Of a stretch of 64,000 nucleotides of DNA, positions 3,935-54,523 are shown piece after piece (positions within the stretch are counted from its first letter, which is position 1; every line of letters begins with the position of its first letter). Under the pieces are notes generated by a model. That model saw only the letters and a list, made by a program, of their open reading frames with translations, had not been told where the DNA came from and searched no databases. The position numbers were made by a program, and so were the translations under genes. Source of the DNA: Actinopolyspora biskrensis (lineage in GTDB: Bacteria; Actinomycetota; Actinomycetes; Mycobacteriales; Pseudonocardiaceae). The DNA is taken from positions 434,001-498,000 of the forward strand of contig NZ_JACBYW010000001.1 in the NCBI RefSeq assembly GCF_013408175.1, in the 5' to 3' direction.

Positions 3935-5728
3935 ATGCAGCACGACCGTCCCGACAGCCGACCCGAAGAGGGTGTTGGGCAGGGTGCCCGCAGCAACGCG
4001 GAAACGAACGACCAGATCCGCGAGTTGGAGGACGAGGTCGCCTCGCTCCGCAGCAGGCTCAACGAGTCCCCTCAGCAGGTGCGGTTGTTGGAGCAGCGGC
4101 TGGCCGAGGCATCCGAGAGAGTGAGTCAACTCACTGAACGGAACGCCAAACTCACCGAGACTCTCAAAGAAGCGCGCAGCCAGTTGACCGCCCTGCGCGA
4201 GGAAGTCGACCGACTCGCCCAGCCACCGAGCGGGTACGGGGTCTTCCTCGCCAGCTACGAGGACAACACGGCCGACGTGTTCACCTCGGGACGGAAAATG
4301 CGCGTCGCCGTATCGCCGAACGTGAATGTGGAGGAGCTGCAACTCGGCCAGTCGGTTCGCCTCAACGAGGCGTTGACGGTGGTCGAGGCCGGAACTTTCG
4401 AACGTACCGGCGAGGTGTGCACTTTTCGCGAGGTGCTGCCTTCCGTGGACGTCGACCAGCCTCGGCGTGCACTGGTCACCGGTCACAGCGACGACGAGCG
4501 GGTGGTTTGGCTCACCCCTCCGATGGTCGAATCCGGACTCAAGTCCGGTGACTCGGTGCTGGTGGACAGCAAGGTCGGATACGCCTACGACACGGTGCCC
4601 AAGGCCGACGTCGAGGACCTCACGCTCGAGGAGGTTCCCGACGTCCAGTACGAGGACATCGGTGGTCTCGGCGGTCAGATCGAGGAGATCAGGGACGCCG
4701 TGGAGCTCCCGTTCCTGCACTCGGAGCTGTACGTGCAGTACAAGCTCTCCCCGCCCAAGGGAGTGCTGCTGTACGGGCCGCCCGGGTGCGGCAAGACCCT
4801 GATCGCCAAGGCGGTCGCCAATTCACTGGCCAAGAAGGTCGCCGCGAACCGGGGTGACGAGGACGGTCAGGCGAAGTCCTACTTCCTCAACATCAAGGGT
4901 CCCGAGCTGCTGAACAAGTTCGTGGGCGAGACCGAGCGGCACATCCGGCTGATCTTCCAGCGTGCCAGGGAGAAGGCCTCCGAAGGCACGCCGGTGATCG
5001 TGTTCTTCGACGAGATGGACTCGATCTTCCGGACGAGGGGCAGCGGAGTCTCCTCGGACGTGGAGACCACGATCGTTCCCCAGCTGCTCAGCGAGATCGA
5101 CGGTGTCGAGGGCCTGGAGAACGTCATCGTGATCGGTGCCTCCAACCGGGAGGACATGATCGATCCCGCCATCCTGCGTCCGGGACGGCTGGACGTGAAG
5201 ATCAAGATCGAGCGTCCGGACGCCGAATCGGCCAAGGACATCTTCGCCAAGTACCTGACCAGCGAGCTGCCCATCCACGAGGACGATCTGCGCGAGTTCG
5301 GCGGTGATCAGCCGACCTGCATGGACGCGATGATCCAGACCACGGTCGAGCGGATGTACGCCGAGACCGACGAGAATCGCTTCCTCGAGGTCACCTACGC
5401 CAACGGGGACAAGGAGGTCCTGTACTTCAAGGACTTCAACTCCGGGGCGATGATCCAGAACATCGTGGACCGGGCGAAGAAGGCGGCCATCAAATCGGCG
5501 ATCGAGACCGGCCAGTCCGGGATACGGATCCAGAACCTGCAGGACGCGATCGTCGACGAGTTCGCCGAGAACGAGGACCTGCCCAACACGACCAACCCGG
5601 ACGACTGGGCGCGCATCTCCGGTAAGAAGGGGGAGCGGATCGTTTACATCCGGACGCTGGTCAGCGGCAAGAACCAGGAGTCGGGACGTGCCATAGACAC
5701 CGCCACCAACACCGGTCAGTACCTGTAA
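3935..5728 (+). CDS. arc: Proteasome-associated AAA ATPase ARC/Mpa
   Basis: This ring ATPase recognises Pup on tagged proteins, unfolds them and feeds them to the 20S proteasome. The 597-residue product shows the full family layout. An N-terminal coiled coil (about residues 25-95, with heptads such as [12 protein letters not shown]) binds Pup. An OB-fold region follows to about 240. The AAA domain has Walker A GPPGCGKT at about 280-287 and Walker [11 protein letters not shown] at about 354-363. The C-terminal end GQYL is the signal that docks into and opens the proteasome gate. The start is the ATG at 3935, nine bases after GGGAGGAGG. The frame runs further upstream, but that part is not family sequence. 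Confidence 0.97.
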
Positions 5729-5785
5729 CCGTCGTTCGCCCGAGCACCGGATCGGTTTCCGAGCCGGTTCGGGCGGGAAGTTCGA

Positions 5786-5817
5786 GAGGGGCGTCGTCCG
5801 AACGGGCGGCGCCCCTC
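5786..5817 (+). terminator. Hairpin terminator after arc
   Basis: The arms GAGGGGCG (5786-5793) and CGCCCCTC (5810-5817) pair perfectly. The inner bases extend the stem with two mismatches. It sits 57 bases after the arc stop and before the next gene. There is no U-run, which is usual for high-GC actinobacteria. Confidence 0.65.
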
Positions 5818-5864
5818 CGCTTGTCCGGTGTCGCCATCGACGTACGGAAGTTAGGTTACGGCGC

Positions 5865-6818
5865 ATGACGGGTGCTGCGAACGGGCGACTGGAACGCCTC
5901 GGTGTCGGGCTGGCCGCGTTGGGCAGGCCCGCCTACATCAACGTCGGACGAACCGACGTGCTGCCCGGCTCGCGCACGGTGGACGCGATGCGCGAGCGGA
6001 CCAGGCAAGTGCTGGACGCCGCCTACGCGGAGGGGATCCGGCGGGTGGACACCGCGCGCTCCTACGGCAGCGCCGAGCGGTTCCTGGCCGAGTGGTTGCG
6101 CGACCGCGGCCACGAGGACGTGGTCGTCTCCAGCAAGTGGGGCTACGTCTACGTCGCCGAATGGCGGCTCGAAACAGAAGTGCACGAGACCAAGGAGCAC
6201 TCGCTGGAGCGGTTCAGACAGCAGTGGCCCGCCACGCGCGAGCTGCTCGGCAGGCATCTCCGGCTGTACCAGGTGCACTCCCTGACCAGGGACAGCCCGC
6301 TGTTCGAGGACGCCGACCTGCAGCGGGAACTGGCGCGGCTCAGGGACAGCGGGGTTCGACTGGGGATATCCACCAGTGGAGCCGCTCAGGCCGACGCGAT
6401 CGAGGCGGCCTGGGAACTGCGCGTCGGTGGGAGCCAGTTGTTCGGTGCTGTGCAGTCCACCTGGAACTCCCTGGAACCCTCGGCGGGCAAGGCCCTGCGG
6501 TACGCCCACGAGGGCGGTTGGACGGTGCTGGTGAAGGAGACACTGGCCAACGGCAGGCTGGCGGTGCGCCCACCGGAACCGTTGGCCGCGGTCGCGGGCA
6601 GGCACGGCGCCGGCGCCGATGCGGTGGCCCTGGCGCACGTGCTGGCGCAGCCCTGGGCCGACACGGTGCTGCTCGGCGCGGCCAGCGTGGGGCAGTTGCG
6701 CAGCAACCTGGCCGCCTGCTCGTTGACGCTGGAAGAGCGCGATCTGGACGAGTTGGCCGCGGCCGCCGGGGATCCGGCGACCTACTGGGGGGAGCGGTCG
6801 GCGCTCCCCTGGCATTGA
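5865..6818 (+). CDS. Aldo/keto reductase
   Basis: The enzyme is a predicted NADPH-dependent oxidoreductase acting on carbonyl compounds; the substrate cannot be read from the sequence. The 317 residues show the family tetrad. Asp and Tyr are in RRVDTARSYG, Lys is in VVSSKWGY, and His is in LYQVHSLTRDSP. The C-terminal half has the usual cofactor-binding region around DTVLLGAASVGQLRSNL. The ATG start gives MTGAANGRLERLGVGLAALG, in line with the family N-terminus. It is flanked by hairpins on both sides and lies between arc and dop, where the mycobacterial locus has other genes. A role in the Pup system is not implied. Confidence 0.88.
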   Translation: MTGAANGRLERLGVGLAALGRPAYINVGRTDVLPGSRTVDAMRERTRQVLDAAYAEGIRRVDTARSYGSAERFLAEWLRDRGHEDVVVSSKWGYVYVAEWRLETEVHETKEHSLERFRQQWPATRELLGRHLRLYQVHSLTRDSPLFEDADLQRELARLRDSGVRLGISTSGAAQADAIEAAWELRVGGSQLFGAVQSTWNSLEPSAGKALRYAHEGGWTVLVKETLANGRLAVRPPEPLAAVAGRHGAGADAVALAHVLAQPWADTVLLGAASVGQLRSNLAACSLTLEERDLDELAAAAGDPATYWGERSALPWH

Positions 6819-17396: not shown

Positions 17397-18356
17397 GTGA
17401 CGGTGGAAGACAGTCCGCGTCGTAGTCGTAAACGATTCGGTCGCGATCGGAACAAGTACAGCCGCCGCCGCAATCCCGACGGGACCATGAGCCTCGTCGA
17501 TCACCTTTACGAGCTGCGTCATCGGCTCGGGGTGGCGTTGCTCTGGGTGCTGATCGGCGGGGTATTCGGATTCTGGTGGTTCTCGAACCAGTTGTTCGTT
17601 CTGCCGAGTCTCGGGGACCTCATCACCGGGCCGTACTGCTCGTTGCCCGAGAGCGCTCGGATGACCCCGAACGGCGAGTGCCAGCTCATGCAGACCCGGC
17701 CGTTCGAAGTGTTCATGCTTCAGCTCAAGGTCGGTCTCGCGCTGGGCGCGGTGTTGTTGAGTCCGGTCTGGTTGTACCAGTTCTGGGCCTTCATCGCTCC
17801 CGGGCTGCACTCGAAGGAGCGCAAGTTCGCCAGGATCTTCGTCGGTATCGGCAGCCTGCTGTTCGTCGCGGGAGCGCTGCTGGCCTACTTCGTGGTTCCG
17901 AAGGGGCTCACCTTCATGGTGGGTTTCGGTGGGGACGAGTTCTTCACCGCCCTCACCGGTGGCGAGTACATCAACTTCGTGCTGCTGATGCTGTTGTTCT
18001 TCGGTATCAGCTTCGAACTCCCCCTCGTCATGGTGATGCTCAACAGGGCGGGCGTGGTCAGCTACGCCCAGCTGCGCGGCTGGTGGCGGGGAAGCGTGTT
18101 CGCCCTGTTCATCTTCGCCGCCGTGGCCACCCCGCAGGACCCGATTTCCATGCTGGTGCTCGGCGCGGCGCTGTGCGTCCTGTACTCCGTCGCGTTGCTG
18201 ATATGCCACTCCCACGACCGCTCCAAGGAACGCAAGCAGCGTGAGCAGGACTCGGCGGAGGACCCCGACGCTCCCTCGGACGTGGACCCCCGTGCTTCCG
18301 AGCTGAGCACGACCGGTACGTCGTCGGCGACTCACGGGGACGACGAGGCGACCTGA
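17397..18356 (+). CDS. tatC: Twin-arginine translocase subunit TatC
   Basis: TatC is the receptor that binds twin-arginine signal peptides. The 319-residue product has a basic N-terminal stretch (RRSRKRFGRDRNKYSRRRNPDG) before the conserved cytoplasmic motif MSLVDHLYELRHRL. The six membrane helices of the family follow, with the usual QFWAFIAPGLHSKERKF loop. The acidic C-terminal tail ends at DEAT. The GTG at 17397 lies 9 bases after tatA. An alternative GTG two codons on is possible. A hairpin terminator follows. Confidence 0.95.
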   Translation: MTVEDSPRRSRKRFGRDRNKYSRRRNPDGTMSLVDHLYELRHRLGVALLWVLIGGVFGFWWFSNQLFVLPSLGDLITGPYCSLPESARMTPNGECQLMQTRPFEVFMLQLKVGLALGAVLLSPVWLYQFWAFIAPGLHSKERKFARIFVGIGSLLFVAGALLAYFVVPKGLTFMVGFGGDEFFTALTGGEYINFVLLMLLFFGISFELPLVMVMLNRAGVVSYAQLRGWWRGSVFALFIFAAVATPQDPISMLVLGAALCVLYSVALLICHSHDRSKERKQREQDSAEDPDAPSDVDPRASELSTTGTSSATHGDDEAT

Positions 18357-18380
18357 TCGAGGTTTCCGCTCGGGGCCCGT

Positions 18381-18418
18381 GGGGGCTCGTTTCGGCGCCG
18401 CCGCGCCGGGGAGCCCCC
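18381..18418 (+). terminator. Hairpin terminator after tatC
   Basis: GGGGGCTC (18381-18388) pairs with GAGCCCCC (18411-18418). The 22-base interior is itself able to fold through CGGCGC repeats. It lies 24 bases after the tatC stop and ends the pafB-pafC-tatA-tatC unit. Confidence 0.65.
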
Positions 18419-18556
18419 GTCCGGCCGGCGAATCGGAGCCCCGAGACCGCGGAGCGGGGAGGCCGTGCGCGCGACGTGCGGGCTCCCCGCGCCTCCCGTG
18501 CGGTGAATGTCACCGCGATTGGCACATTCCCGGGGCGGATATGAAAGTCTGGGAGT

Positions 18557-21361
18557 GTGGCTGACAGCCGTACCGAAACCACGGAGACAGGCGCCGCACC
18601 GGTGGATCCGGCGAAGGCCCGTACCGACGACCACCGTGCCCGCGGTGCCCACCCGCGCCTGAACGCGTTCACGATGGACGTGTCCTTCGAACTGGACGCG
18701 TTCCAGCGGACCGCCTGCCAGGCCCTGGAGGACGGGCACGGGGTGCTGGTCTGCGCCCCGACGGGGGCGGGCAAGACCGTAGTCGGTGAGTTCGCGGTGA
18801 ACCTCGCCCTCGGGGGAGGGCACAAGTGCTTCTACACCACTCCGATCAAGGCGCTTTCCAACCAGAAGTACACCGACTTCTGTGAACGTTACGGTTCCGC
18901 CTCGGTGGGGCTGCTGACCGGCGACACCTCGATCAACGGCAACGCGCAGGTGGTCGTGATGACCACCGAGGTGCTGCGCAACATGCTCTACGCCGGTTCG
19001 AGCACCCTCGACACGCTCGGCTACGTGGTGATGGACGAGGTGCACTACCTGGCGGACCGCTTCCGGGGGGCGGTCTGGGAGGAAGTGATCCTGCACCTGC
19101 CCGAGCACGTGCAGCTCGCGAGCCTGTCGGCGACGGTGAGCAACGCCGAGGAGTTCGGCGAGTGGCTGGTCGAGGTGCGCGGGGACACCACCGTCGTGGT
19201 CGACGAGCACCGCCCGGTTCCGCTGTGGCAGCACATGCTGGTGGGAAGCAGCATGTTCGACCTGTTCGGCGGTGAGACGGAGAACCGGGAGCTGAAGATC
19301 AACCCCGAGCTGCTGCGTCACACCGGGGAGCTCGGTCGCAGCAGGGGAGCGCCGGGCAAGGTGCGCCGCGGGCCGGACGGCAAGAAGCGGGTTCAGCACC
19401 GGGGGAACAGGTTCTTCCAGCCTTCGCGGGTGGACGTGCTCACCCAGCTCGAGGACGCCGAGCTGCTCCCGGCCATCGTGTTCATCTTCAGCCGTGCGGG
19501 CTGTGACGCTGCCGTGGCCCAGTGCGTCCGGGCAGGTCTGCGGCTGACCACCGAAGACGACCTGGCCGAGATCCGCGAGGTGATCGAGGAGTACACCAGT
19601 ACGCTCCCCGAGAGCGATCTGGAGGTGCTCGGGTACTGGGAGTGGCGGGAGGCCCTGGAGCGTGGAGTGGCAGCACACCACGCGGGACTGCTTCCCGCCT
19701 TCAAGGAAACCGTCGAGGAGCTGTTCGTCCGCGGGCTGGTCAAGGCGGTTTTCGCCACGGAAACTCTCGCCCTCGGGATCAACATGCCCGCGCGCACGGT
19801 CGTGCTGGAGCGGTTGGTCAAGTTCAACGGCGAGTCGCACGTCGATCTGACCCCCGGGGAGTACACGCAGCTCACCGGAAGGGCGGGACGCCGCGGTATC
19901 GACGTCGAGGGCCATGCCGTGGTCGTGTGGCAGCCGGGGATGGACCCCAAGCAGGTCGCGGGGCTCGCCTCGACACGTACCTATCCGCTGCACTCCTCCT
20001 TCCGCCCCGGCTACAACATGGCGGTCAACCTCGTCGGGCGGGTCGGCTCCGAAGCGGCTCGGGAGCTGCTGGAGCAGTCCTTCGCGCAGTTCCAGGCCGA
20101 CCGTTCGGTGGTCGGCCAGTCCCGTCGGGTGGAGCGCAACACCGAGGCGCTCGAGGGCTATGCCGAGGCGATGCACTGCGATCAGGGTGATTTCGCCGAG
20201 TACTTCGAGCTGCGCCGACGCATTTCCGAGCGGGAGAAGGAGCTCGCGAAGCAGAACAAGGCGGCCAAGCGGGCCGAGGCCGCCAAGTCCCTGGAGAAGC
20301 TCCGCAAGGGTGACGTGATCGTGATTCCATCGGGGCGGCGTTCCGGGCTGGCCGTGGTGATCGATCCCGGCCTTGATCCGATGGAGGAGCCGCGTCCGCT
20401 GGTCGTCACGGAGGACCGCTGGGCCGGACGGGTGTCGGTGGCCGACTTCACCAACCCGGTCGAGGCCCAGGACAGGATCAAGTTGCCCAAGTACGTCGAC
20501 GTCCGTTCGCCGAAGTCGCGGCGCAATCTGGCGAACACGTTGCGCGAGACCGGCGTGAGCACCAGCGGGGGGCGGCGCGGGAAGAACAAGGGCGCGGACA
20601 CGAACAGCGACCAGGAGCTGGCGAGTCTGCGGCGGGCCATGCGTTCGCACCCCTGTCACGGCTGCGCCGAGCGGGAGAGCCACGCCAGGTGGGCCGAGCG
20701 GCACGAAAGGCTGCGCAGGGAGACCGAACAGATCAGGAACAAGGTGGCCGCCACGACGAACTCCCTCGTTCGGTCGTTCGACCGGATCACGGCCCTGTTG
20801 GAGGAACGGCACTACCTGGACCCGTATCAGCCGGACGATCCGGTTACCGAGTTCGGCAAGCGCCTGTCCAGGATCTACAGCGAGTCGGACCTGTTGGTGG
20901 CCGAGTGCCTGCGGGTGGGCAAGTGGCGGGCCCTCGAACCGGCCCAGCTGGCCGCCGTGGTTTCCTCACTGGTCTACGAGGCACGCGGTGACTCCCCCTC
21001 GGCTCCGGAGGTGCCCCCGGGCGCCGTGGCGGACGCGCTGTCGGCCACCTGGGAGCTGTGGGCCGAGTTGGAGGACGACGAGCGCAGGCACAAACTGGAT
21101 CGCACCCGTGAGCCCGATCCGGGATTCGCCTGGCCGGTCTACCGCTGGGCCAGGGGGGATTCGCTGGAGAAGGTGCTGACCGCTTCGGCCACGGCCGGGC
21201 ACGAGCTGTCCGCGGGCGACTTCGTGCGCTGGTGTCGTCAGGTGATCGACCTGCTGGATCAGATCCGCGAGGTCGTGGGCCGCGAGGATCCGGTCGGTTC
21301 GGCCGCGAACAAGGCGCTCAGCGGGATCAGGCGCGGGGTGGTCGCGGCCGGTTCCGTCTGA
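18557..21361 (+). CDS. helY: DEVH-box RNA/DNA helicase of the HelY/Mtr4 (Ski2-like) family
   Basis: A large superfamily-2 helicase, the bacterial relative of the eukaryotic Mtr4 and Ski2 helicases; its role in actinobacteria is not firmly known. The 934 residues show Walker A CAPTGAGKTVVGEF at about 69-82, motif Ia TPIKALSNQK, the DEVH box in YVVMDEVHYLADRF, SAT in ASLSATVSN, and the motif VI region YTQLTGRAGRRGID. The long C-terminal part contains the DSHCT domain (KLSRIYSESDLLVAECLRVG). The GTG start follows GGGAG. It is downstream of tatC after a hairpin, as in mycobacteria. Confidence 0.93.
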   Translation: MADSRTETTETGAAPVDPAKARTDDHRARGAHPRLNAFTMDVSFELDAFQRTACQALEDGHGVLVCAPTGAGKTVVGEFAVNLALGGGHKCFYTTPIKALSNQKYTDFCERYGSASVGLLTGDTSINGNAQVVVMTTEVLRNMLYAGSSTLDTLGYVVMDEVHYLADRFRGAVWEEVILHLPEHVQLASLSATVSNAEEFGEWLVEVRGDTTVVVDEHRPVPLWQHMLVGSSMFDLFGGETENRELKINPELLRHTGELGRSRGAPGKVRRGPDGKKRVQHRGNRFFQPSRVDVLTQLEDAELLPAIVFIFSRAGCDAAVAQCVRAGLRLTTEDDLAEIREVIEEYTSTLPESDLEVLGYWEWREALERGVAAHHAGLLPAFKETVEELFVRGLVKAVFATETLALGINMPARTVVLERLVKFNGESHVDLTPGEYTQLTGRAGRRGIDVEGHAVVVWQPGMDPKQVAGLASTRTYPLHSSFRPGYNMAVNLVGRVGSEAARELLEQSFAQFQADRSVVGQSRRVERNTEALEGYAEAMHCDQGDFAEYFELRRRISEREKELAKQNKAAKRAEAAKSLEKLRKGDVIVIPSGRRSGLAVVIDPGLDPMEEPRPLVVTEDRWAGRVSVADFTNPVEAQDRIKLPKYVDVRSPKSRRNLANTLRETGVSTSGGRRGKNKGADTNSDQELASLRRAMRSHPCHGCAERESHARWAERHERLRRETEQIRNKVAATTNSLVRSFDRITALLEERHYLDPYQPDDPVTEFGKRLSRIYSESDLLVAECLRVGKWRALEPAQLAAVVSSLVYEARGDSPSAPEVPPGAVADALSATWELWAELEDDERRHKLDRTREPDPGFAWPVYRWARGDSLEKVLTASATAGHELSAGDFVRWCRQVIDLLDQIREVVGREDPVGSAANKALSGIRRGVVAAGSV

Positions 21362-46206: not shown

Positions 46207-46293
46207 GTCGGAGTGGCGGAAACGGTAGACGCGCTAGCTTGAGGTGCTAGTGACCTATTAATGGTCGTGGGGGTTCAAGTCCCCCCTCCGACA
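46207..46293 (+). tRNA. tRNA-Leu (GAG anticodon)
   Basis: The 87-base gene folds as a class II tRNA. Acceptor arms GTCGGAG and CTCCGAC pair at all seven positions, with A at the discriminator position. The anticodon arm CTAGC-TTGAGGT-GCTAG gives GAG, reading CTC and CTT. The long variable arm is TGACC...GGTCG, typical of leucine tRNA. The T-arm is GGGGGTTCAAGTCCCCC. CCA is not encoded (ACACCC follows). It is the insertion site of the element to the right. Confidence 0.95.
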
Positions 46294-46300
46294 CCCTGTC

Positions 46301-46318: not shown

Positions 46319-46906
46319 GTGCGAGGTTCGAAGGTTTGTTGGCGCGGCACCATGGGTGCCGCTTTTTCTCATGTCTTGACGCGCTGGCTGTGCGTGGGCC
46401 GTGCTGTGGCCGCCGGGGTGGTGGTCGGCGTGGGTGAGTCGGTCGTGTCCGCGGTGGTTCCCGGTGCTGGGCGTGGTGATTCCGCCCGGAGTTCGGTGGC
46501 TGATGGGGTGTGGCCGCGTGCGTTTCCGCTGGCGGAGGTGCCGGAGTCTGCCGGGGTGTCGTCGTGGGTGTTCGGCATGGGCCGGGTGGATGCCTCGGGC
46601 CGGGTCGGTGACCGTGCGGTGGTGGCCGCGCTGGGCTGGGGGCGTGCTCAGCGGTGCGAGCTCGGTGTGCTCGCGGGCTCGGTGCTGCTGCGGGCCCACC
46701 CGGACGGGCTCTACGGGCTTTCCGGGCCGGGGTATGTGGTGGTTCCGGCGCGGGCGCGTTCGCGCTGCGGGATCAGCGCGGGGGATCGTGTGCTGCTGGC
46801 GGGATCGCCGCAGCGGGGGGTGTTGCTGGTGCACCCGCCGGTGGTGGTGGAGGCGGCGTTGGCCGAGCGGCACGCGGCCGTGCTGGGGGTGAGCCTCGAT
46901 GAGTGA
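46319..46906 (+). CDS. AbrB/MazE-like DNA-binding protein next to the integrase
   Basis: The recognisable part is the C-terminal 110 residues: FGMGRVDASGRVGDRAVVAAL, then a swapped-hairpin-type segment YVVVPARARSRCGISAGDRVLLAG and VVVEAAL. This resembles SpoVT/AbrB or MazE antidote folds seen next to integrases in actinobacterial elements. The start is unsure. The frame opens at the GTG 46319; an ATG at 46352 and a GTG at 46556 (VSSWVFGMGRV) are options, and the last fits the family length best. The stop overlaps the integrase start by eight bases, so the two are coupled. Confidence 0.65.
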   Translation: MRGSKVCWRGTMGAAFSHVLTRWLCVGRAVAAGVVVGVGESVVSAVVPGAGRGDSARSSVADGVWPRAFPLAEVPESAGVSSWVFGMGRVDASGRVGDRAVVAALGWGRAQRCELGVLAGSVLLRAHPDGLYGLSGPGYVVVPARARSRCGISAGDRVLLAGSPQRGVLLVHPPVVVEAALAERHAAVLGVSLDE

Positions 46907-47954
46907 TCGAGTGGAACACTCCGGCAACGCTGGTCCCGCTCCGTCGGAGCTGGAGGCGGCTCGGTTGGTGTTGGCGCGGATGGGGGTGGCGCCGGAGGAT
47001 CTGGTGGGGTCCGCGGCGGAGTCCTGCGTGGTGCCGACGTTTGCCGAGTATGTGCCGGTGGTGCAGCAGGCGGTGTCGGCGGGGACCAGGCGGGTGTATG
47101 GCTCGTACTGGAAACGGGTACTCGAGTTCTGGGGTTCTCGGCGGTTGGACGAGCCCACCGCGTCGGAGATCAAGCACTTGGCTGAGCAGGTGCGGGCCCA
47201 GCGGGTGCTGCGGCGCAACGCCCGGGGTGGGCGCAGCGCGGTGGAGCACTGTATCGCGGCGTTGCGGTGTGTGTACCGGCACGCGGTGGCCGACGGGATC
47301 CTGTCGGAGTCGCAGGATCCGGCCCGGCGGGTGGCGATGCCGCGTCGGTTGCCGAGTACGCGGCGCGGGTTGGGGGAGCAGCCGGTGGCGGAGCTGAACC
47401 GGGTGGCCGCCTCGACGGGTAATGATCCGGCGTTGGATGCGTTGTTGGTGCGGTTGCACACCGAGACGGCCTGCCGTCGGGGTGGTGCGTTGGCGTTGAG
47501 GGTGGCTGATCTGGATGCGGATCAGTGTGTGGTGCTGCTGCGGGAGAAGAATGATGCGATGCGGTGGCAGCCGGTTTCGCCGACGTTGATGCGGCATTTG
47601 CGGGAGCATGCTGATCAGCGGGGTGCGCATGCCTCCGGTGACGGGAGGGTGTTGCGCTACCGGAATCGGTCACCGTTGACGCATCGCCGGTATGACCACC
47701 TGTGGCACCGGCTCGGACAGCACCTGTCGTGGGTGGCCACCCAGCAGGTCAGCACCCACTGGCTGCGGCACACCACGTTGACGTGGGTGGAGCGCCACTT
47801 CGGCTACGCGGTGGCCCGGGCCTACGCCGGCCACACCGACCACGCGGGCCAGGACGGGGCCACGGCCACCTACGTCCGCGCGGGGCTGCCCGAAATCGCC
47901 GCAGCCCTGGCCGCTTTGACCGGAGAGGAACACCCCCTGGTCCCGGCGGGCTAG
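46899..47954 (+). CDS. int: Tyrosine-type integrase of the element
   Basis: It should cut and join the element into the tRNA-Leu gene. The 351-residue product has a core-binding domain (about 45-145: TFAEYVPVVQQAVSAGTRRVYGSYWKRVLEFWG) and a catalytic domain. Active residues are Arg193 or Arg194 (TETACRRGGALAL), His287 and Arg290 (HWLRHTTLTW), His312 (AGHTDHAGQD) and Tyr325 (ATYVRAG). The ATG overlaps the AbrB-like gene. It reads away from the tRNA, 605 bases from its end. Confidence 0.92.
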   Translation: MSDRVEHSGNAGPAPSELEAARLVLARMGVAPEDLVGSAAESCVVPTFAEYVPVVQQAVSAGTRRVYGSYWKRVLEFWGSRRLDEPTASEIKHLAEQVRAQRVLRRNARGGRSAVEHCIAALRCVYRHAVADGILSESQDPARRVAMPRRLPSTRRGLGEQPVAELNRVAASTGNDPALDALLVRLHTETACRRGGALALRVADLDADQCVVLLREKNDAMRWQPVSPTLMRHLREHADQRGAHASGDGRVLRYRNRSPLTHRRYDHLWHRLGQHLSWVATQQVSTHWLRHTTLTWVERHFGYAVARAYAGHTDHAGQDGATATYVRAGLPEIAAALAALTGEEHPLVPAG

Positions 47955-48077
47955 AGTCCGCCGGTCCTTTCCAGGACACACCGACCGGTGTTCCGGGTAT
48001 CGGTACGCGTGAGGGTCTGCTCGTCATCGCGGATGGTGGGCAGGCCCTCCTGTCCGCCGGGGACGGGCTTGGAGTGC

Positions 48078-48972
48078 GTGTCGAGCGCTTCGGGTGATGT
48101 CGCGTTGACCGTGGGGGAGTTGGGGTGGTGGCGCGTTACGCGCTCGACAGTGTGCGCGACGTTCTCGCGGTCTTCGAGGAGGTCTGTCCCGGGGATGGGC
48201 GGCCGCGTGCTGCTGTGGAGGCCGCGCGGGCTTTCGCCGGTGGTGCTGTGTGGTCGACGTGGCAGCGCGTTGCCGCTCTGGAGGCGCACCGCGCGGCGGG
48301 AGCCGCCGCTGAGCAGACGTCTGCAACGCCGGTCGTGCCGCGGGGGATGCGGCCGCGGCGGCTTATCTGCATCCGCTCGCGCGGGCGAGCCAGCTCGGCC
48401 ACGTCCTGCGTGCGAGCGCGCACGCGGTCCGAGCTGCCGAGCTGCGCGCCGGTGACGATCCCGCGGTGGCGGAGGCGGTGATCCGGCGGGCGCGTCAGCG
48501 CACCACGCCCGTGTTGATCGACGTTCTTCGTCGCTACCCCCGTGCTCCCGCGGGGAAGAACCGCGTCGCACAGTTGATGAAGACTCTGGACAGCACACTA
48601 CGAACGCCGTACTCCGCAGCGCAGGCCCCTCCGAGAACCGGACAAGTCACGAACCGTGGAACCGACCGGCCCACGAGGCTCCGGCAACTTACTCCGCCCT
48701 CAAGGGGCGATCCGGCCGGTCTCGTCGTTTCCCTGCATGCGTATCCGGGCGGATTCGAGCAGAACACAAGCCCCTACGAGCTCGCTGCGAGCTATAGGAC
48801 AGTGGCTGCCCACAAGGCACGTTTCGTTATTGACTCTCCTCCTAACTTGCTCAGGAGCGATATGTTTCTCCAGCACAGGTGGGAACCCTATTGTCTTCGT
48901 AGGAGTCTGATCATGGTTCCGCTGAGCGGATTCTTTCAGAAGCGAGTCTCTCCTGGAGAGCGGTATGGCTGA
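48078..48972 (+). pseudogene. Imm-5-like putative immunity protein gene with two frameshifts
   Basis: Three frames together spell one protein of the actinobacterial Imm-5-like group. The first frame from the GTG 48078 gives SSASGDVALTVGELG. It passes to ARYALDSVRDVLAVFEEVCP and RPRAAVEAARAFAGGA in the next frame, starting near the G-run at 48122-48125. It then passes to RAAGDAAAAAYLHPLARASQ and VIRRARQRTTPVLIDVLRRYP in the third, near 48310-48335. Each break equals one missing base. Family sequence ends about 48605 at MKTLDSTLR; the frame runs on to 48972 without known sequence and overlaps the NACHT gene end. It is decayed or has base-call errors. Confidence 0.6.
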
Positions 48973-50851
48973 ATTGGTAGAGGGGGCCCACTGTCCGGAT
49001 CAGCCTCCGTGCGCGGGCGTCTTCGAGAAATCTGATCATGTTGCGAGGAATGCTGTTTTTGTTCGAGAGTCTAATGTAAGATAATTTTACAATCACAAAG
49101 GGACTGGACAATAATGTAATGAGTATGGAAAACAGTCCGTATGAAATCCCAAAAATAATTCCGATTGCGAATCCGAAAGTAAGTGTTGTTATGGTTCCAG
49201 TTGCGATTCCTGTTCCTGGGCCGATTAAGATTGCTAATGTGATTATGCTGTTCCGGTCTTGTCTCCACAGTATGGAGGGGCTTCTGAAATCGTGATCAAC
49301 CAAATGTGACCGACACAGCTCAGCCGTAGGCCCGATTCCGAGCCCGTGTGCGAGTCCGAGGGCTAGTCCGTCCACGAGTCCGGCTACGACTCCGGTCACG
49401 AATCCGTCTGTGATCCCGAATATGAGCAGGAGCACAAGCCCGATAATGCCTCCGCCTGCCAGCCCGCCCATGAGGCCAAACGCGAGCCCGACTGCGAGTC
49501 TGCGGGGTTCCAGTCTCAATCGTTGAGGCTGCATGGGTGATGTGATTATGGGATTGTTACTGATTACGACGGGAAAATTCCACCAGGCGAAGTCGTGGGT
49601 TTCCGCTGCGGTCATTCGGGTGGCGAGGTATACCAGAGCGTTGCGAGCGGTCTTGATCGTGTAGGGAGGTTGTGGCTGTCCCGGACGGGGTGTGTAGGCG
49701 GCGTCAATCGTGTGATCGAGCAGGTGGTTGCCGATGTCGGTGGCGGTGGGGAAACGGGTGGTGTCGAGGAGCTTGTCGACAGGGTCGGCGGGGTTGTAGA
49801 CATCGCGGAGCAGACTCAGCGTCAACGGGTTGGCCAGTGCTTGGTGGACAGCACTGTCCGAGTCATCCGCGGTGAGGTGCTCGGCAAGATTCTGCCAGGC
49901 AGTCGGAGGTGGGGCTGGACGGTCTGCCAGGAGGTAGTGGGCGGCGCTGTCTGGAGGGATGGGCTGTAGCTCGAGGGCTACGGCTCCGGCCAGGATCGTT
50001 GTTTCAGCGGTGGTCAGTGCTTCGTCAATACGGCTGGTAATGACTAATCGAAACGGGACACCGGCCAGGGCCGTGAGTGCGTTGGAACGTGTGTGTTCGG
50101 GCATTTCGTCGAGCCCGTCGAGCAATACGGCCACCCGGCCAGTGGACAACATATCAGTGGCATGATCGTGGTTGCGGAATATCGGGTAGCTCTCGACGAG
50201 TTTGTCGGCCAACCAGTCGATGACAGCGATCGTGGGATCCCAGCCGTGCAACGTGAACATCACCGGAACGGGCACCCGTTCCCGAGCCTCCACAGAGGCT
50301 TGATAGCGAAAGCGTAGCGCATCCTGAAGAAGCAGAATCGCTGCTGCACTCTTTCCAGATCCGGCCGGGCCGAGTAACAGCAGCCGGCCCGATCCCAAAC
50401 CTCCGTACACGGTGTGTAGGGAAGTCGCGTCCCCTTCCTCTAGCTGTGTATGGTCCACAGATTCCAATCCGGGCAGCGGATCGAATCGGGCTCCGGTGGA
50501 CGTGCTGCCTGTAGCAGCGGAGACCGGGCCGGCTACGGGGTGCTGCGAACGACGCCACCGCACCGGCAGCGGCTGCGGATGCAGCAGCTTCCGCTCCTCG
50601 ATGGCCTGCGCCCATTCGTTCCACACCGCTGTTGCGAGCCGATCATCCAGATCGTGTGCATCCGAGCTCGATTTGCTCAGTGATATGAGCGGCAATACCG
50701 GTGCGAGGGCGCCGGAGAGTCCACCAACGATGCCAGCGAGATTGTTCCCCGTATCCAGCCCTTGAGCAAGGGTGGTGCCGATGATCAGAGCGATGATTCC
50801 TAAAACCACCGAGAGCGTTATACGCGCCCTCGAAAACCGCCACCGTGTCAC
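48911..50851 (-). CDS. Membrane NACHT-domain NTPase with a glycine-zipper C-terminus
   Basis: A STAND-class signalling ATPase of 646 residues. Two membrane helices lie at about 10-58. The NACHT domain has Walker A LLGPAGSGKSAAA (161-168) and Walker B VAVLLDGLDEMPEH (about 240-251), then FRLVITSRIDE. The region from about 430 to 575 is membrane-like, with Gly at nearly every fourth residue (GLAFGLMGGLAGGGIIG, GFVTGVVAGLVDGLALGLAHG and GIATGTITTLTFGFAIGIIFG). That spacing is a glycine zipper. There is no leucine-rich or TPR sensor repeat. Bacterial NACHT proteins often defend against phage. The GTG at 50849-50851 starts 66 bases after the upstream gene. GC content falls in the C-terminal third. 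Confidence 0.88.
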   Translation of the reverse strand: MTRWRFSRARITLSVVLGIIALIIGTTLAQGLDTGNNLAGIVGGLSGALAPVLPLISLSKSSSDAHDLDDRLATAVWNEWAQAIEERKLLHPQPLPVRWRRSQHPVAGPVSAATGSTSTGARFDPLPGLESVDHTQLEEGDATSLHTVYGGLGSGRLLLLGPAGSGKSAAAILLLQDALRFRYQASVEARERVPVPVMFTLHGWDPTIAVIDWLADKLVESYPIFRNHDHATDMLSTGRVAVLLDGLDEMPEHTRSNALTALAGVPFRLVITSRIDEALTTAETTILAGAVALELQPIPPDSAAHYLLADRPAPPPTAWQNLAEHLTADDSDSAVHQALANPLTLSLLRDVYNPADPVDKLLDTTRFPTATDIGNHLLDHTIDAAYTPRPGQPQPPYTIKTARNALVYLATRMTAAETHDFAWWNFPVVISNNPIITSPMQPQRLRLEPRRLAVGLAFGLMGGLAGGGIIGLVLLLIFGITDGFVTGVVAGLVDGLALGLAHGLGIGPTAELCRSHLVDHDFRSPSILWRQDRNSIITLAILIGPGTGIATGTITTLTFGFAIGIIFGISYGLFSILITLLSSPFVIVKLSYIRLSNKNSIPRNMIRFLEDARARRLIRTVGPLYQFSHTALQERLASERIRSAEP

Positions 50852-50917
50852 GACAAAGGATCCTACCGTCGACCGCCGTCGTGTCGGTGGACTGTAGCGA
50901 TTCGCGCAGTGCTCGTT

Positions 50918-52057
50918 TTACGGGGTTGTTGTGTTGGTGGTGTGGGGGTTGGTCAGTTGGGCGTATTCGTGGGCGAGGGCGAGGAGTTGGTGGGTGTCGG
51001 CGTGGGTGTCGGTGGTGGCTGGTGCGGCGATGATCGAGGGCGGGGTGGTGTGGGTGGGGGTGGTGTTGGTGAGTGCGGTGTGGATGAGTTGTGCTTGGTG
51101 TGCGGGGGTGTGGTCGGGGTGGATGGGTTCGGGTAGGTAGGGGCTGAGGCAGACGAGTCCGTCGCGGCATTCGATGATGCGGCGGTAGTAGCGCAGTCGC
51201 ATGTGGCGGAGTTGCCAGGCTTCGCGGTGTGGTGGGGGTGGGGTGAATAGGGCGATGGTGGGGAAGTGCTGGTGCAGTGCTGCCCAGAGGGGGCGGAGTT
51301 GCCGGTGCTGGCGGCGCATGGTGATCCACAGTCGGGTTGTGGTGATGCCGGTGCGTATGCCGGGGTAGCCGATGCCGAGGAAGAAGACGCTGATCCCGAG
51401 GGCCAGCAGGGGTGGTGTCCAGTGTGCTGTTGCGGGGACGGGGTCGGTGCCCAGCAGTAGTCGGCCGGTGGTGGACAGCACGCGGGGCAGGTGTGTTCCC
51501 AGCAGGCATGCGGTGAGTCCGAGGGCGGCCACGGTCAGGCTCTGACGGGCACCGGAGTAGGTCTGCCTCGCCGAGGCTCGGCATAGCCAGGCGCCGCGGG
51601 CGGTGGCGTAGCTGAGGTAGAGGTTGCCGATGAGGTAGAAGGCCAGCACCCCGGGGTACTGACCGGCTTCGGGGTAGCTGGTTCCGCGCCACTGTTGGGC
51701 GGTGGTGGCGAAGGCGAGGATCAGTCCGGTGCTGGTCAGGACCGCTAGCGCGATCTCTCCGTAGCCCTGTCGGGTGGCAGTGGTGGGGGCCAGGTTGGAA
51801 CGCAGCAGCACGATCAGCAGCGCGAAGAAGAACGTCAGCAGCACGTTCTGCAGCAGTTTCGGTGAGTGGCTGGGAAAGATCCCCGCCAGGCCGGGAATGC
51901 TGACGGCCAGCTGGGCCGACAGGGCCACAGCGACCAGGACCGTGCACAGGGTGACCACCCGCAAGCCCCGATCGTTCGGGAGGCGGATCAGCTGGGAGGT
52001 TTTCCATACTGCGGCGATCACGGCCGCGGTCCACATGAGCAGGTTGGGCCCGAGCAT
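50918..52057 (-). CDS. MAB_1171c-family polytopic membrane protein
   Basis: The 379-residue protein has about seven membrane helices in the first 270 residues, such as LLMWTAAVIAAVWKTSQLI and LLQNVLLTFFFALLIVLLRS. A cytoplasmic part follows with REAWQLRHMRLRYYRRIIECRDGL, then a low-complexity Thr/His/Pro tail. This is the layout of the MAB_1171c putative transporter group, commonly encoded next to ImmA/IrrE proteins in actinobacteria. Transport is not shown; a signalling role with the protease is as likely. The ATG at 52057 overlaps the IrrE stop (TGATG). The frame is open upstream but family sequence starts at MLGPNLLM. Confidence 0.8.
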   Translation of the reverse strand: MLGPNLLMWTAAVIAAVWKTSQLIRLPNDRGLRVVTLCTVLVAVALSAQLAVSIPGLAGIFPSHSPKLLQNVLLTFFFALLIVLLRSNLAPTTATRQGYGEIALAVLTSTGLILAFATTAQQWRGTSYPEAGQYPGVLAFYLIGNLYLSYATARGAWLCRASARQTYSGARQSLTVAALGLTACLLGTHLPRVLSTTGRLLLGTDPVPATAHWTPPLLALGISVFFLGIGYPGIRTGITTTRLWITMRRQHRQLRPLWAALHQHFPTIALFTPPPPHREAWQLRHMRLRYYRRIIECRDGLVCLSPYLPEPIHPDHTPAHQAQLIHTALTNTTPTHTTPPSIIAAPATTDTHADTHQLLALAHEYAQLTNPHTTNTTTP

Positions 52058-52587
52058 CACAGCCACCCTTGGTGGTCGTCGAACGCGTTGCTCAACCGAT
52101 CGCGCCTGCCCTGGGGAAACTGGAGATGGTCGAGCAGGCTCGCCCATTCCTTGATCACGGTGGCCACCATTTCGGCTTCCCGCTCGGCAGCGGGCCCGTA
52201 GTCGTCCCGGCGTAGTGCGCGGCGGATCATTTCGGGCGGAATGTCGGGGAACAGGTGGTTCCACACGTCGGCATCGCTGTTGTCGCTGCCGTGCTCGGAG
52301 AGGATGTGGCCGATTTCGTGCAGGATGATGTGTTCTTGATGGGCGGGGGTGGTGTCGCGCTGATAGAGGATGTAGTCGGTATCGGCCGTGCCGATCCACA
52401 GCCCGAACACCCCGGGAACGGGCAGGGGATAGGGCACCAGTCTGATGGGGCGATGTCTGCGCTGAGCCAGCCGGTCACACAGCAGGGGGACATCCAGCGG
52501 TGCGTCCAGACGGAGTTCGCGGAGAAGACGACGGACTCCGCGTCGCAGGTGGAGATCGTTGCGCCATCCACGAGCTTCGTCGGTCAT
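52057..52587 (-). CDS. ImmA/IrrE-family zinc metalloendopeptidase
   Basis: A 176-residue protein with the zinc motif ILHEIGHILSEHG (HEIGH at 90-94) and a downstream Glu in AAEREAEMVATVI. It fits the ImmA/IrrE family, which cleaves XRE-type repressors: ImmA acts on ImmR in ICEBs1 and IrrE on DdrO in Deinococcus. An XRE gene lies 960 bases upstream in the same cassette and is the natural candidate target. The ATG at 52585-52587 overlaps the hydrolase stop by four bases and follows GGAGGTCGGGAC. Confidence 0.88.
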   Translation of the reverse strand: MTDEARGWRNDLHLRRGVRRLLRELRLDAPLDVPLLCDRLAQRRHRPIRLVPYPLPVPGVFGLWIGTADTDYILYQRDTTPAHQEHIILHEIGHILSEHGSDNSDADVWNHLFPDIPPEMIRRALRRDDYGPAAEREAEMVATVIKEWASLLDHLQFPQGRRDRLSNAFDDHQGWL

Positions 52588-53405
52588 GTCCCGACCTCCG
52601 TGAACAGTGTCCGGAGCGCGGCCGCACTGGCCCGGGGATGACTGACCAGACCGTTGTGCCCACCCGGGAGTTCGACGAGTCGGTGAGTGAGGTGATGGGC
52701 CAGCTGTTCGGCGCAGCGGTATTCCCACCGTTCGCGGCCGTGATCACCACCCGTGGGGACGATCGGTACCGAGGAACAGGACAATTGCGCGAGATCGAGG
52801 TGAGCGTGCCGGACGGCGGGGAAATCGTGGGCGAAGAACCACCGCAGGTTCGCCGCGGTGTCACCGACCTGATCCCCCGCTTGGGCTCCCTCTTCCCAGA
52901 CGGGCGGTTCGTTACCGCTGAACGTGACGAAGTGCCGAATCGCGGCGTGCACGTCCCGCTCGGCGAGTGCGGCGACCTCGTCCAGCCCGGACTCCTGAAC
53001 CGGGTCCCGAACCAGCGACAGCATCGGCGGCTCGTGAGCGACCAGCCTCGCCACGCGTTCGGGATGTCGCAGTGCCAGGGACAGCCCGATGACCGCGCCG
53101 ATACTGGGGCCGACGACGTGGGCGGGCTGCTCCGTCACCGCATTCAGCAACGCTGCCGCGTCATCGGCATGGGTCGCCATCGTGACCGGTGTCTTCGCCT
53201 GTCCGTCCGGAAGGGAACTGCGCGACAGACCACGACGATCATAGGAGATCACTTGGTGGTGCGCGGCCAACTCGTTGGCGAGCTGCTCCGTGGTGCCCGC
53301 TTCGCTCAAACCCCCTTGAATGATCAGCAGCGGAGTGCCGTTACCGCGGATCTCGTAATAGAGCTCCGCCTCGTCGACCGTGACCATTCCCTGACGTGCT
53401 CGCAC
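52584..53405 (-). CDS. Alpha/beta-hydrolase fold enzyme
   Basis: A 273-residue hydrolase of unknown substrate. The nucleophile elbow is VVGPSIGAVIGLSL with Ser101, the oxyanion region LLIIQGGLSEAG, and the catalytic His in LPGGHNGLVSHP at about 254. The GTG at 53403-53405 follows AGGGG; an ATG six codons later is possible. It sits between the XRE and ImmA/IrrE genes, an unusual place for such an enzyme, and overlaps the latter, so its production is tied to the protease. Confidence 0.85.
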   Translation of the reverse strand: MRARQGMVTVDEAELYYEIRGNGTPLLIIQGGLSEAGTTEQLANELAAHHQVISYDRRGLSRSSLPDGQAKTPVTMATHADDAAALLNAVTEQPAHVVGPSIGAVIGLSLALRHPERVARLVAHEPPMLSLVRDPVQESGLDEVAALAERDVHAAIRHFVTFSGNEPPVWEEGAQAGDQVGDTAANLRWFFAHDFPAVRHAHLDLAQLSCSSVPIVPTGGDHGRERWEYRCAEQLAHHLTHRLVELPGGHNGLVSHPRASAAALRTLFTEVGT

Positions 53406-53548
53406 CGTCCCCTACTTCCCTGCCGCACCCAGCATGACCAGTAACGCGGCATGGCCATCGAAAGGACCTTGAATACGTGTTCAGTTGTCTAGACCAAGGA
53501 TGGCCTCACCATAAAACAACGAGAAGCCCCACGTCAGCGAAATGAGGT

Positions 53549-53974
53549 TCACTCGGAAGGGTGGTCCTTTGAGGAGCGGCCAGCTTGGAAGTCGATGAAC
53601 TCCATCACGCTGCGAAGCTGCTCCGGTGAGAGCTGGCTGGCACGAGCCGCGATGTGGCGTGCGTTCTGCTCGCCCAGCTTCGCCAACAGGTCATACTGCT
53701 GGTTGAGGTCACGGCCGCGTTCGGTGTCGGCGAAGTACTCCAGTTCGACGCCGAAGAAGTCCGCGAGTTTGACCACGACGGAGTGGCTCGGCTCGTTCTT
53801 ACCCTTCAGTAGGTCGTAGAGGTACCCTCGCGACACTCCGATGAACTCGGCCACCTCCGGTTTGCCGTACGAGGTGCCGTCGTCACGCTTTACGCTGCTG
53901 AAAAGTCGGCTCAGTCTGGTGGCGAACGTATCCCCCGCCGCGTTTGCCCCGGGCTCGGTCACTGTTCTCACCAC
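53549..53974 (-). CDS. XRE-family transcriptional regulator
   Basis: A 141-residue protein with an N-terminal helix-turn-helix: GKPEVAEFIGVSRGYLYDLLKGKNEPSHSVVVKLADFFGVELEYF, seen in pieces from about residue 41 to 85. The remainder is helical and may dimerise. With the ImmA/IrrE gene downstream it forms a likely repressor-protease pair of the ImmR/ImmA kind. The GTG at 53972-53974 follows AGAGG. It is divergent from the WhiB and conjugation genes and next to a promoter with a palindrome. Confidence 0.85.
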   Translation of the reverse strand: MVRTVTEPGANAAGDTFATRLSRLFSSVKRDDGTSYGKPEVAEFIGVSRGYLYDLLKGKNEPSHSVVVKLADFFGVELEYFADTERGRDLNQQYDLLAKLGEQNARHIAARASQLSPEQLRSVMEFIDFQAGRSSKDHPSE

Positions 53975-54523
53975 CTCTCGCGAGGGTGTCGTAAAAGCCT
54001 GACCAGCAATATCAACTGTCGACTAAACTTGACAACCCTGTCGAGGGTTCCTACTCTCAAGGTTGCACTGTCAAGGATACCGGACAAGAGCTCTCGACGA
54101 TATGGCCCGTCCGGAGCGGTGCTTCCCTGGGAGCAGAAATACAGCAGTGGACAGTCAGGGCTGACTGCTGTCCGGTTCGTCGGAGACCCGTCAACAGAAG
54201 GTGTTTCGATCACCAGGTCGGTCGAACACGGCGTAGGAACAATCAACGCTCTGCTCGATGAGAGGAGAAAAGAGCGAACAACCGCACCTCTGGATCGTTC
54301 CTGTGTTCGAAAAATCAGGGAAGGTGCGTGTCGTTGCGGAGGAATTTCGGTATTTTTCTGATTGTGAGGTCAGGACGCTCCTGGTCAAGATGATGTTTTC
54401 TTGATCGGTGCTATTCGGCATCGCTTGGTGCTGCTTTGTTTGCTGTGATGTTTCCCCGAGAGTTCCGTTTTTCTGGGCTCATGTGGGGTGCGATCTGTTT
54501 TCTGTGGAGTTCATTCGGAGATT
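53975..54523. other. Divergent control region between the XRE cassette and the transfer operon
   Basis: These 549 bases are clearly less GC-rich than the rest. They hold the promoter and palindrome at 54029-54057, scattered half-sites of the form TTGACA or TGTCAA, and an invertible stretch at 54141-54173 (ACAGCAGT ... ACTGCTGT, with GGACAGTCAG inside). Frames such as 54029-54361 are open but have no ribosome binding site or known family. The long leader before WhiB suggests RNA-level control, which is inference. Confidence 0.6.
54029..54057 (+). promoter_or_regulatory. Strong promoter with a palindrome in the spacer
   Basis: TTGACA (54029-54034) and TACTCT (54052-54057) are 17 bases apart, the ideal spacing, reading toward WhiB and the transfer genes. 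Between them lies AACCCT-GTCG-AGGGTT (54034-54049), a perfect 6-bp inverted repeat. A dimeric repressor bound there would cover the promoter. The XRE protein encoded 55 bases away is the likely ligand. Confidence 0.75.

Follow-up and report, generated by a model that had tools for sequence, protein, structure and literature searches.

The window analysed here, a 64,000-nucleotide stretch of the Actinopolyspora biskrensis genome (contig NZ_JACBYW010000001.1), contains five adjacent minus-strand genes, read from 53974 down to 48911, that encode in order an XRE-type regulator, an alpha/beta hydrolase, an ImmA/IrrE-like metalloprotease, a membrane protein of the MAB_1171c family (hereafter MAB) and a NACHT-like ATPase of the STAND class (signal transduction ATPases with numerous domains). 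A first-pass annotation, made from the letters alone, had described five genes in one direction at 48911..53974 with two stop-start overlaps and short gaps, and the open reading frames bear this layout out: hydrolase and protease overlap by 4 bp, protease and MAB by 1–4 bp depending on the MAB start, and the two remaining spacings are 143 bp (XRE to hydrolase) and 66 bp (MAB to NACHT). The first four genes, called the cassette below, are almost certainly one conserved unit, which we read, with somewhat better than even confidence, as a membrane-linked chemical-sensing switch composed of XRE, hydrolase, protease and MAB. The features on which this reading draws are as follows.

53549..53974, minus strand: XRE-type regulator, full-length EspR-like (helix-turn-helix plus C-terminal domain); HTH_3 (PF01381), E 1.2e-9
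52584..53405, minus strand: alpha/beta hydrolase of the cassette; PF00561, E 1e-16; Ser101 (GxSxG) and His250 invariant
52057..52587, minus strand: ImmA/IrrE-like (M78-like) metalloprotease, 177 aa; HEIGH motif, conserved E136/E140
50918..52060 (alternative start 52057), minus strand: MAB_1171c family membrane protein; NF042915, 315.4 bits; C-terminal DUF6545 (PF20182), 84.5 bits
48911..50851, minus strand: NACHT-like STAND ATPase with hydrophobic segments at both the N- and C-terminal ends, recognised by Walker motifs and hydropathy; very probably cargo outside the cassette
54018..54033, minus strand: candidate operator GTCAAGTTTAGTCGAC, overlapping the -35 end and spacer of the promoter-like site of XRE

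A search with each of the five proteins against 120 genomes of the family found XRE, hydrolase, protease and MAB together and in the same order, judged by coordinates, in eight (G000, G072, G038, G077, G044, G074, G040 and G109; in G038, MAB is cut off by the end of the contig); G082 and G069 have decayed copies. Five of the 10 genomes of the genus carry the cassette, and a Saccharopolyspora pogona plasmid carries hydrolase, protease and MAB with XRE convergent behind MAB. In a tree of 95 MAB proteins, built by a quick method that gave warnings on some long branches outside this group, the MABs of hydrolase cassettes form one group (10 rows; support of 100 in the Shimodaira-Hasegawa-like approximate likelihood ratio test, SH-aLRT) that spans four coded genera and Saccharopolyspora. 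The hydrolase label needs a single change on this tree, and all enzyme labels together need 22 changes versus 50.1 in shuffles. The cassette occurs both on and off mobile elements. The four-gene part of the unit proposed by the first-pass annotation recurs in at least four genera of the family.

To place the cassette among its relatives we assembled 102 loci, 99 from the 120-genome family sample and the window, two from two further genomes of the genus and one from a plasmid; those fetched for MAB matches in the family sample came from the matches listed, not from all of them, and six of the 102 lack a MAB match, having been included for hydrolase or NACHT matches. Genes were called in these loci from a codon score and hidden Markov model (HMM) matches, so that starts are approximate and some genes were overlooked (the window NACHT, MAB in L088, L089 and L135, and some ImmA genes); because of this approximation the triad counts use HMM matches, whereas the slot-gene counts and the MAB tree use the gene calls. 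An ImmA-like gene lies at most 400 bp before MAB in 93 of 98 MAB genes (HMM match of at least 850 bases), and XRE is near 83 of these 93 pairs, 73 times upstream on the same strand and 10 times otherwise placed. In the window XRE is likewise directly upstream of the protease, apart from the hydrolase that intervenes. The cassette is one version of an XRE-ImmA-MAB triad that is widespread and can take different enzymes.

The enzyme usually stands after MAB. Among 94 MAB genes having a next gene, that gene is co-directional and within 60 bp in 42; the remainder are co-directional but farther (13), opposite (30) or a convergent XRE (9). By Pfam assignment, with one representative scanned per cluster, 35 of the 42 slot genes encode enzymes: 14 amidohydrolases (PF01979), 11 flavin adenine dinucleotide (FAD) monooxygenases (PF01494), five F420-type reductases (PF04075), four cytochromes P450 (PF00067) and one adenosine monophosphate (AMP) ligase (PF00501). 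The other seven comprise three DNA ligases from one genus, a ribonuclease Z, one gene without a Pfam match and two that were unscanned. The DNA ligases, which are ATP-dependent, directly follow MAB in L118–L120 and there replace the small-molecule enzyme. A 4-bp overlap joins enzyme and MAB in 17 of 36 enzymes within 120 bp. The same enzyme clusters, which had been picked after being seen and come from related loci that are not independent, occupy the downstream position in 3 of the 468 other pairs of close co-directional genes in these loci. Because the clusters were picked afterwards, we also made a position-by-position control: 36 of 85 genes at position +1 (35 of them co-directional) belong to clusters found there in at least three genera, versus 0/94, 0/93, 0/92 and 0/86 at +2, +3, +4 and +5, and upstream the counts are 19/83 at -3, 4/89 at -4 and none at -5 to -7.

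A separate sample of 40 loci outside the family yielded 18 close slot genes, all in family f5. These encode FAD oxidoreductases (four), amidases (three), methyltransferases (three) and one each of P450, phosphoenolpyruvate (PEP) mutase and amidohydrolase; these 13 assignments are backed by Pfam, by our own HMMs or by blastp to a scanned member. The rest are four PAP2-like membrane proteins, so labelled by a single sub-threshold match, and one gene without a Pfam match. Since such enzymes are common in these genomes, we take this sample to speak for the generality of the pattern and not as a test against chance. In none of 10 hydrolase cassettes is MAB followed within 60 bp by a co-directional gene (the window NACHT lies at 66 bp), which fits a hydrolase that fills the enzyme role from the other side of ImmA, and the hydrolase probably does fill the role of the slot enzyme in the cassette.

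The slot enzymes also bear on a different explanation, namely that the enzyme serves to produce or degrade an endogenous signal and that the cassette is a circuit of cell-cell or developmental signalling instead of a response to a foreign compound. The enzyme families of the slot would suit the making or trimming of a signal no less than detoxification, and GGDEF genes, which are divergent direct neighbours of the triad XRE at 11 of 67 loci from seven genera, are in keeping with a signalling role, but no biosynthetic gene set recurs behind the triads, where positions +2 to +5 hold no cluster shared by three genera. We consider such a circuit quite unlikely. The GGDEF-type gene is that of cluster c4, of which one member was scanned (PF00990), and its loci are L085, L091, L092, L093, L099, L101, L102, L104, L106, L166 and L169. 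A second recurrent divergent neighbour of the triad XRE is the XRE-NB-ARC-TPR regulator of cluster c8 (scanned through one member), present in five of 67 loci from three genera (L066:12442-14667, L067, L129, L160 and L161); it is a STAND protein unlike the window NACHT.

In the proposed switch the regulator would act on its own promoter. The window XRE aligns over residues 11–128 with the structure of Mycobacterium tuberculosis EspR (3r1f; single-sequence phmmer, E 6e-10), and a profile of 19 triad XREs matches EspR at E 2e-29; by sequence comparison, XRE is a full-length EspR homologue with both the helix-turn-helix and the C-terminal domain. The hexamer AGTTGA/TCAACT occurs upstream of 46 of 68 triad XREs versus 5.3% of 1405 control upstream regions. 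A 16-bp palindromic matrix, whose seed was chosen by eye and whose training set was 42 of the 68 sequences, reaches a score of at least 10 in 46/68 triad upstream regions and 61/1405 controls; on the 26 untrained sequences, 20 score at least 8. A simple TTGAC...GTCAA palindrome had been tried as the motif and was replaced by the 16-mer after it was found in 1 of 68. In nine loci with a convergent XRE, the hexamer precedes ImmA or XRE in three, and the motif therefore does not cover that arrangement.

At 54018-54033 the matrix gives its highest score in the 64-kb window (15.2), and this candidate operator is invariant in all five loci of the genus. It overlaps the promoter-like TTGTCA-16-GATATT of XRE (-35 at 54035-54030, -10 at 54013-54008) and so lies where the site of an autorepressor would be placed. 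The window holds 30 sites scoring at least 8 versus a mean of 15 in 20 shuffles; weak matches therefore say little and only the top score is telling. One weaker match (53479-53494, 9.4) lies in the gap between XRE and hydrolase, and the only match above 10 in the 46–64 kb stretch is that at the promoter of XRE itself. In L086, L094, L095, L115, L118 and L139 two opposite AGTTGA-type sites stand about 45 bp apart upstream of XRE, a spacing that would suit an EspR-like bridging dimer.

The first-pass annotation had gone further and counted NACHT as a member of the unit; in one reading that it offered, protease action would release both element transfer and a NACHT effector. NACHT and the cassette share a strand, are 66 bp apart and lie on one mobile element, but NACHT adjoins only 1 of 11 hydrolase cassettes (window, L064–L070, L152, L153 and L172), and the five families, whose co-occurrence the annotation had put forward as a check, were not seen together in other genomes, which contradicts its proposal. 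The L065 sequence breaks off in MAB, and a search of its genome at 1e-30 gave no match to NACHT. Among the MAB-bearing loci of the 102, a NACHT profile, made from few close sequences and with distant STAND genes outside its reach, matches only the window and gives one 35-bit match in L083 that plain phmmer did not reproduce; phmmer with NACHT found none in the 40 loci of other families.

Three relatives show an empty site. The element in G072, G120 and G121 (L064, L152 and L153) is colinear with the window to base 50909, shortly after the stop codon of MAB; the alignment resumes at 47954-47955, the integrase end, with about 120 unaligned bases between; the window stretch 47956-50908 (2.95 kb), which holds NACHT, is absent. 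In G038 the same spot carries other DNA and open reading frames (L076:824-4430) and the alignment rejoins at 48511; the place between MAB and integrase is therefore a variable cargo site. One further feature belongs to this stretch.

50852..50922, minus strand: region upstream of NACHT that travels with it, delimited by blastn and alignment to L081, a locus with a NACHT paralogue but without a MAB gene

The paralogue in G072 (L081) is similar to the window from 50922 on, so that about 70 bp ahead of the NACHT start are covered as well. NACHT therefore probably has a promoter of its own, and that the two moved together is the simplest reading. A candidate promoter, CCGACA-16-TAGGAT, spotted by eye and not in the output of the promoter scan, lies 8 nt before the NACHT GTG, and the gap between MAB and NACHT contains no operator match of at least 8. 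We therefore hold it highly probable that NACHT is independent cargo, separate from the cassette, and give the five-gene system hardly any credence. Same-strand adjacency across a short gap on a mobile element is insufficient to infer a system, and here the empty sites in relatives argue otherwise.

The NACHT protein itself scores 16.0 bits against Pfam NACHT, below the cut-off of 26.7, and has a Walker A motif (GPAGSGKS, residue 161) and a Walker-B-like motif (VLLDGLDE, residue 242); PADLOC gave no match at E≤0.1. Its paralogues at G000:C6:271426-273297 (L079) and in G072 (L080, L081) are 57–61% identical and have no MAB nearby. In the best-ranked plasmid relative, L174 (NZ_CP038146), an overlapping gene of 143 aa lies upstream of NACHT, and a second NACHT gene, in convergent orientation, comes after it.

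In an alignment of 24 proteases, H91, E92 and H95 of HExxH and E136 and E140 are invariant throughout, and 13 of the 24, the window protease included, match M78 at E≤0.01 (best 2.2e-4). Against solved structures, a protease profile found no M78 structure and fragilysin as its sole match, at E 0.6; single-sequence phmmer found none at E≤1 for the protease and none at E≤10 for MAB. Ser101 and His250 of the hydrolase are invariant in all 11 aligned sequences (nine cassette, two solitary), and esterases and zearalenone hydrolases (E 1.6e-16 to 2.5e-9) are among its relatives of solved structure at E≤1e-8. MAB, at 315.4 bits, is far above the curated NF042915 cut-off of 100; a low-confidence single-sequence model (mean predicted local distance difference test score, pLDDT, of 47.7) has seven N-terminal helices, and a simple hydropathy scan has five strong segments.

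With PADLOC, XRE had weak matches to 10 models (best E 1.1e-4), the protease a single one (capP, E 8e-4) and MAB none, and an identity as a defence system was set aside since only weak XRE and protease matches were found. The same result counts against a toxin-antitoxin-like or abortive system in which MAB would be a membrane effector held in check by XRE and ImmA, as does the frequent presence of an enzyme with the triad. A pair of an XRE protein and a metalloprotease was investigated as a toxin-antitoxin system in PMC10538038; for the cassette, a scheme of this kind appears very improbable.

The five genes of the window sit in an element beside tRNA-Leu, together with a tyrosine integrase and a conjugation-type operon; the latter has WhiB, an SCO6880 family protein (461 bits versus a cut-off of 60), a sub-threshold VirB4-like ATPase and NlpC/P60 matches. 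Two further features lie at the tRNA-Leu.

46899..47954, plus strand: tyrosine integrase of the host element, beside tRNA-Leu; PF00589, E 2.4e-13
46271..46297, plus strand: 27-bp repeat at the tRNA-Leu 3' end, with a second copy about 76 kb off and outside the window

The far copy, with one mismatch, is near G000:C1:556236-556262. About 1 kb before it, just inside the repeat, a second integrase-like gene (L216:307-1145, on G000:C1) has 75% DNA identity to the window integrase, and the 76-kb stretch may therefore be composite. A pattern search found no MAB in viral contigs, and relatives of P0005 among the genome contigs came to one contig fragment.

This setting raises the possibility that the cassette is the switch of a mobile element, with XRE repressing the divergent WhiB/conjugation-type operon and the protease releasing transfer, as ImmR/ImmA do for ICEBs1. 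XRE stands head-to-head with such an operon in the window, L064, L065, L152 and L153, and again in L083 of another genus, where ImmA-MAB is about 12 kb off, at the operon's far end. Close to the start of WhiB there are two weak operator matches (54390-54405, 8.2; 54499-54514, 8.6), and XRE-ImmA pairs are reported to control integrative and conjugative elements (ICEs) in firmicutes (PMC10233336, PMC8960796). In L068, L069 and L070, however, none of the clusters of the operon is found within about 8–9 kb on each side and the neighbours look metabolic by eye, the sole strong operator match of the 46–64 kb stretch is at the XRE promoter, and an element switch leaves the association with enzymes unexplained. 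We therefore regard it as unlikely, without discounting the head-to-head arrangements, which count among the points against a chemical sensor.

In L083 the ImmA-MAB pair and the two XRE genes that face the operon lie at 4311-5953 and 18063-19150, and GTCCRCTWTAGYGGAC-like palindrome repeats precede the first of these XRE genes. In L066, L067, L088, L099 and L135, an operon near the triad carries SAF-domain genes, in some cases together with Peptidase_A24 genes, and looks like a Tad/Flp pilus locus.

Directly observed are the gene order and its conservation, the tight overlaps, the single clade, the operator-like motif, the enzyme association and the insertion of NACHT. M78 proteases paired with XRE regulators act by removal of the regulator, and in systems of the BlaR1 type a membrane receptor is coupled to a protease that acts on a repressor, under whose control stands an enzyme directed against the inducer. 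We infer a comparable sequence of events here, with sensing by MAB, cleavage of XRE by the protease, autorepression, and action of the hydrolase on the inducer. In the resting state XRE would occupy the palindrome over its own promoter and keep the operon low. MAB would perceive a chemical signal at the membrane and activate the protease, with which its gene shares a stop-start overlap; the protease would then cleave or destabilise XRE, the operon would be induced, and the hydrolase would convert the inducing compound and so reset the switch.

A number of observations weigh against this scheme. The window protease scores 16.4 bits against Pfam Peptidase_M78, under the cut-off of 22, and the usual position of the catalytic acid of the hydrolase is not conserved in the 11-sequence alignment. 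The operator matrix had its seed picked by eye; outside the family it is weaker (at least 8 in 7/23 versus 29/423 controls), and in L068–L070 the scores are middling, 6.2 to 9.8 (the XRE start of L070 was miscalled in the motif counts, and its correct upstream region scores 8.9 at best). The 143-bp gap between XRE and hydrolase could house another promoter. Five of the 98 MAB genes examined have no adjacent ImmA, 48 of 94 have neither slot enzyme nor hydrolase, the slot clusters were chosen in hindsight from related loci, and the ten hydrolase cassettes, forming one clade, are therefore one event. The recurrent GGDEF and NB-ARC-TPR neighbours of the triad XRE are not explained by the switch; the latter being STAND proteins, an indirect link between triads and STAND proteins is possible. 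A role in element or surface functions is possible as well, given the head-to-head position of XRE and the conjugation-type operon in two genera and the recurrence of triads near SAF/Peptidase_A24 operons.

A wider proposal, which we put forward tentatively and at less than an even chance, is that Actinobacteria possess a general chemical-sensing platform, in which an M78-like protease, together with a MAB_1171c receptor of seven helices, would exert proteolytic control over an EspR-class regulator, and a plug-in enzyme would dispose of the compound detected; amidohydrolase, monooxygenase, P450, reductase, amidase, methyltransferase and hydrolase would be its occupants. If so, each enzyme points to the chemistry of the ligand of its receptor. 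The neighbourhoods thereby turn MAB_1171c, annotated as a putative transporter, into a receptor hypothesis with the adjacent enzyme as a clue to the ligand, and EspR, studied as a nucleoid protein, is placed in a larger family with many members beside proteases. Each of the families and the pairing of XRE with a protease are already known. In a literature search whose coverage was without most subscription papers, no description of the cassette, or of the triad with its exchangeable enzyme and EspR-like regulator, was recognised among the matches listed, almost nothing was found on MAB_1171c and nothing on DUF6545.

Several known systems resemble parts of the locus. The bNACHT/STAND antiphage proteins (PMC12169576) share the Walker A/B motifs and NACHT-like core of the window protein, which differs from bNACHT and Avs in having no PADLOC match and none above the Pfam cut-off, in its hydrophobic segments on both sides and in its place outside the cassette. 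By the curated cut-off, the window membrane protein is a member of the MAB_1171c family (NF042915; PF20182, DUF6545), which is named as a putative transporter and for which knock-out phenotypes but no mechanism are reported in PMC8707978. EspR of M. tuberculosis is homologous to XRE over the full length of the regulator, including the C-terminal dimerisation region; it is described as a nucleoid-associated protein with the motif TTTGC[TC][GA] that binds DNA as dimers of dimers and forms loops (PMC3315491), whereas the cassette XRE sits with a protease and has a different motif.

The ImmR-ImmA pair of ICEBs1 and similar XRE-M78 pairs share with the cassette an XRE encoded together with an HExxH protease and a presumed proteolysis of the repressor. 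PprI/IrrE-DdrO and CapP-CapH are further pairs of this kind. The cassette differs from all such pairs in its EspR-like XRE, in a MAB_1171c gene that overlaps the protease gene, in the attached enzyme and in a protease that falls below the M78 cut-off. An analogy for the whole may be drawn with BlaR1-BlaI-BlaZ and MecR1-MecI, where a membrane receptor, a metalloprotease, a repressor and an enzyme against the inducer are brought together in one unit. The BlaR1/MecR1 systems combine sensor and protease in one membrane protein and use a BlaI-type repressor, neither of which is found in the cassette; its parts are unrelated to theirs, with a putative sensor separate from a 177-aa protease, an XRE/EspR-like candidate repressor, and an enzyme whose family varies by lineage.

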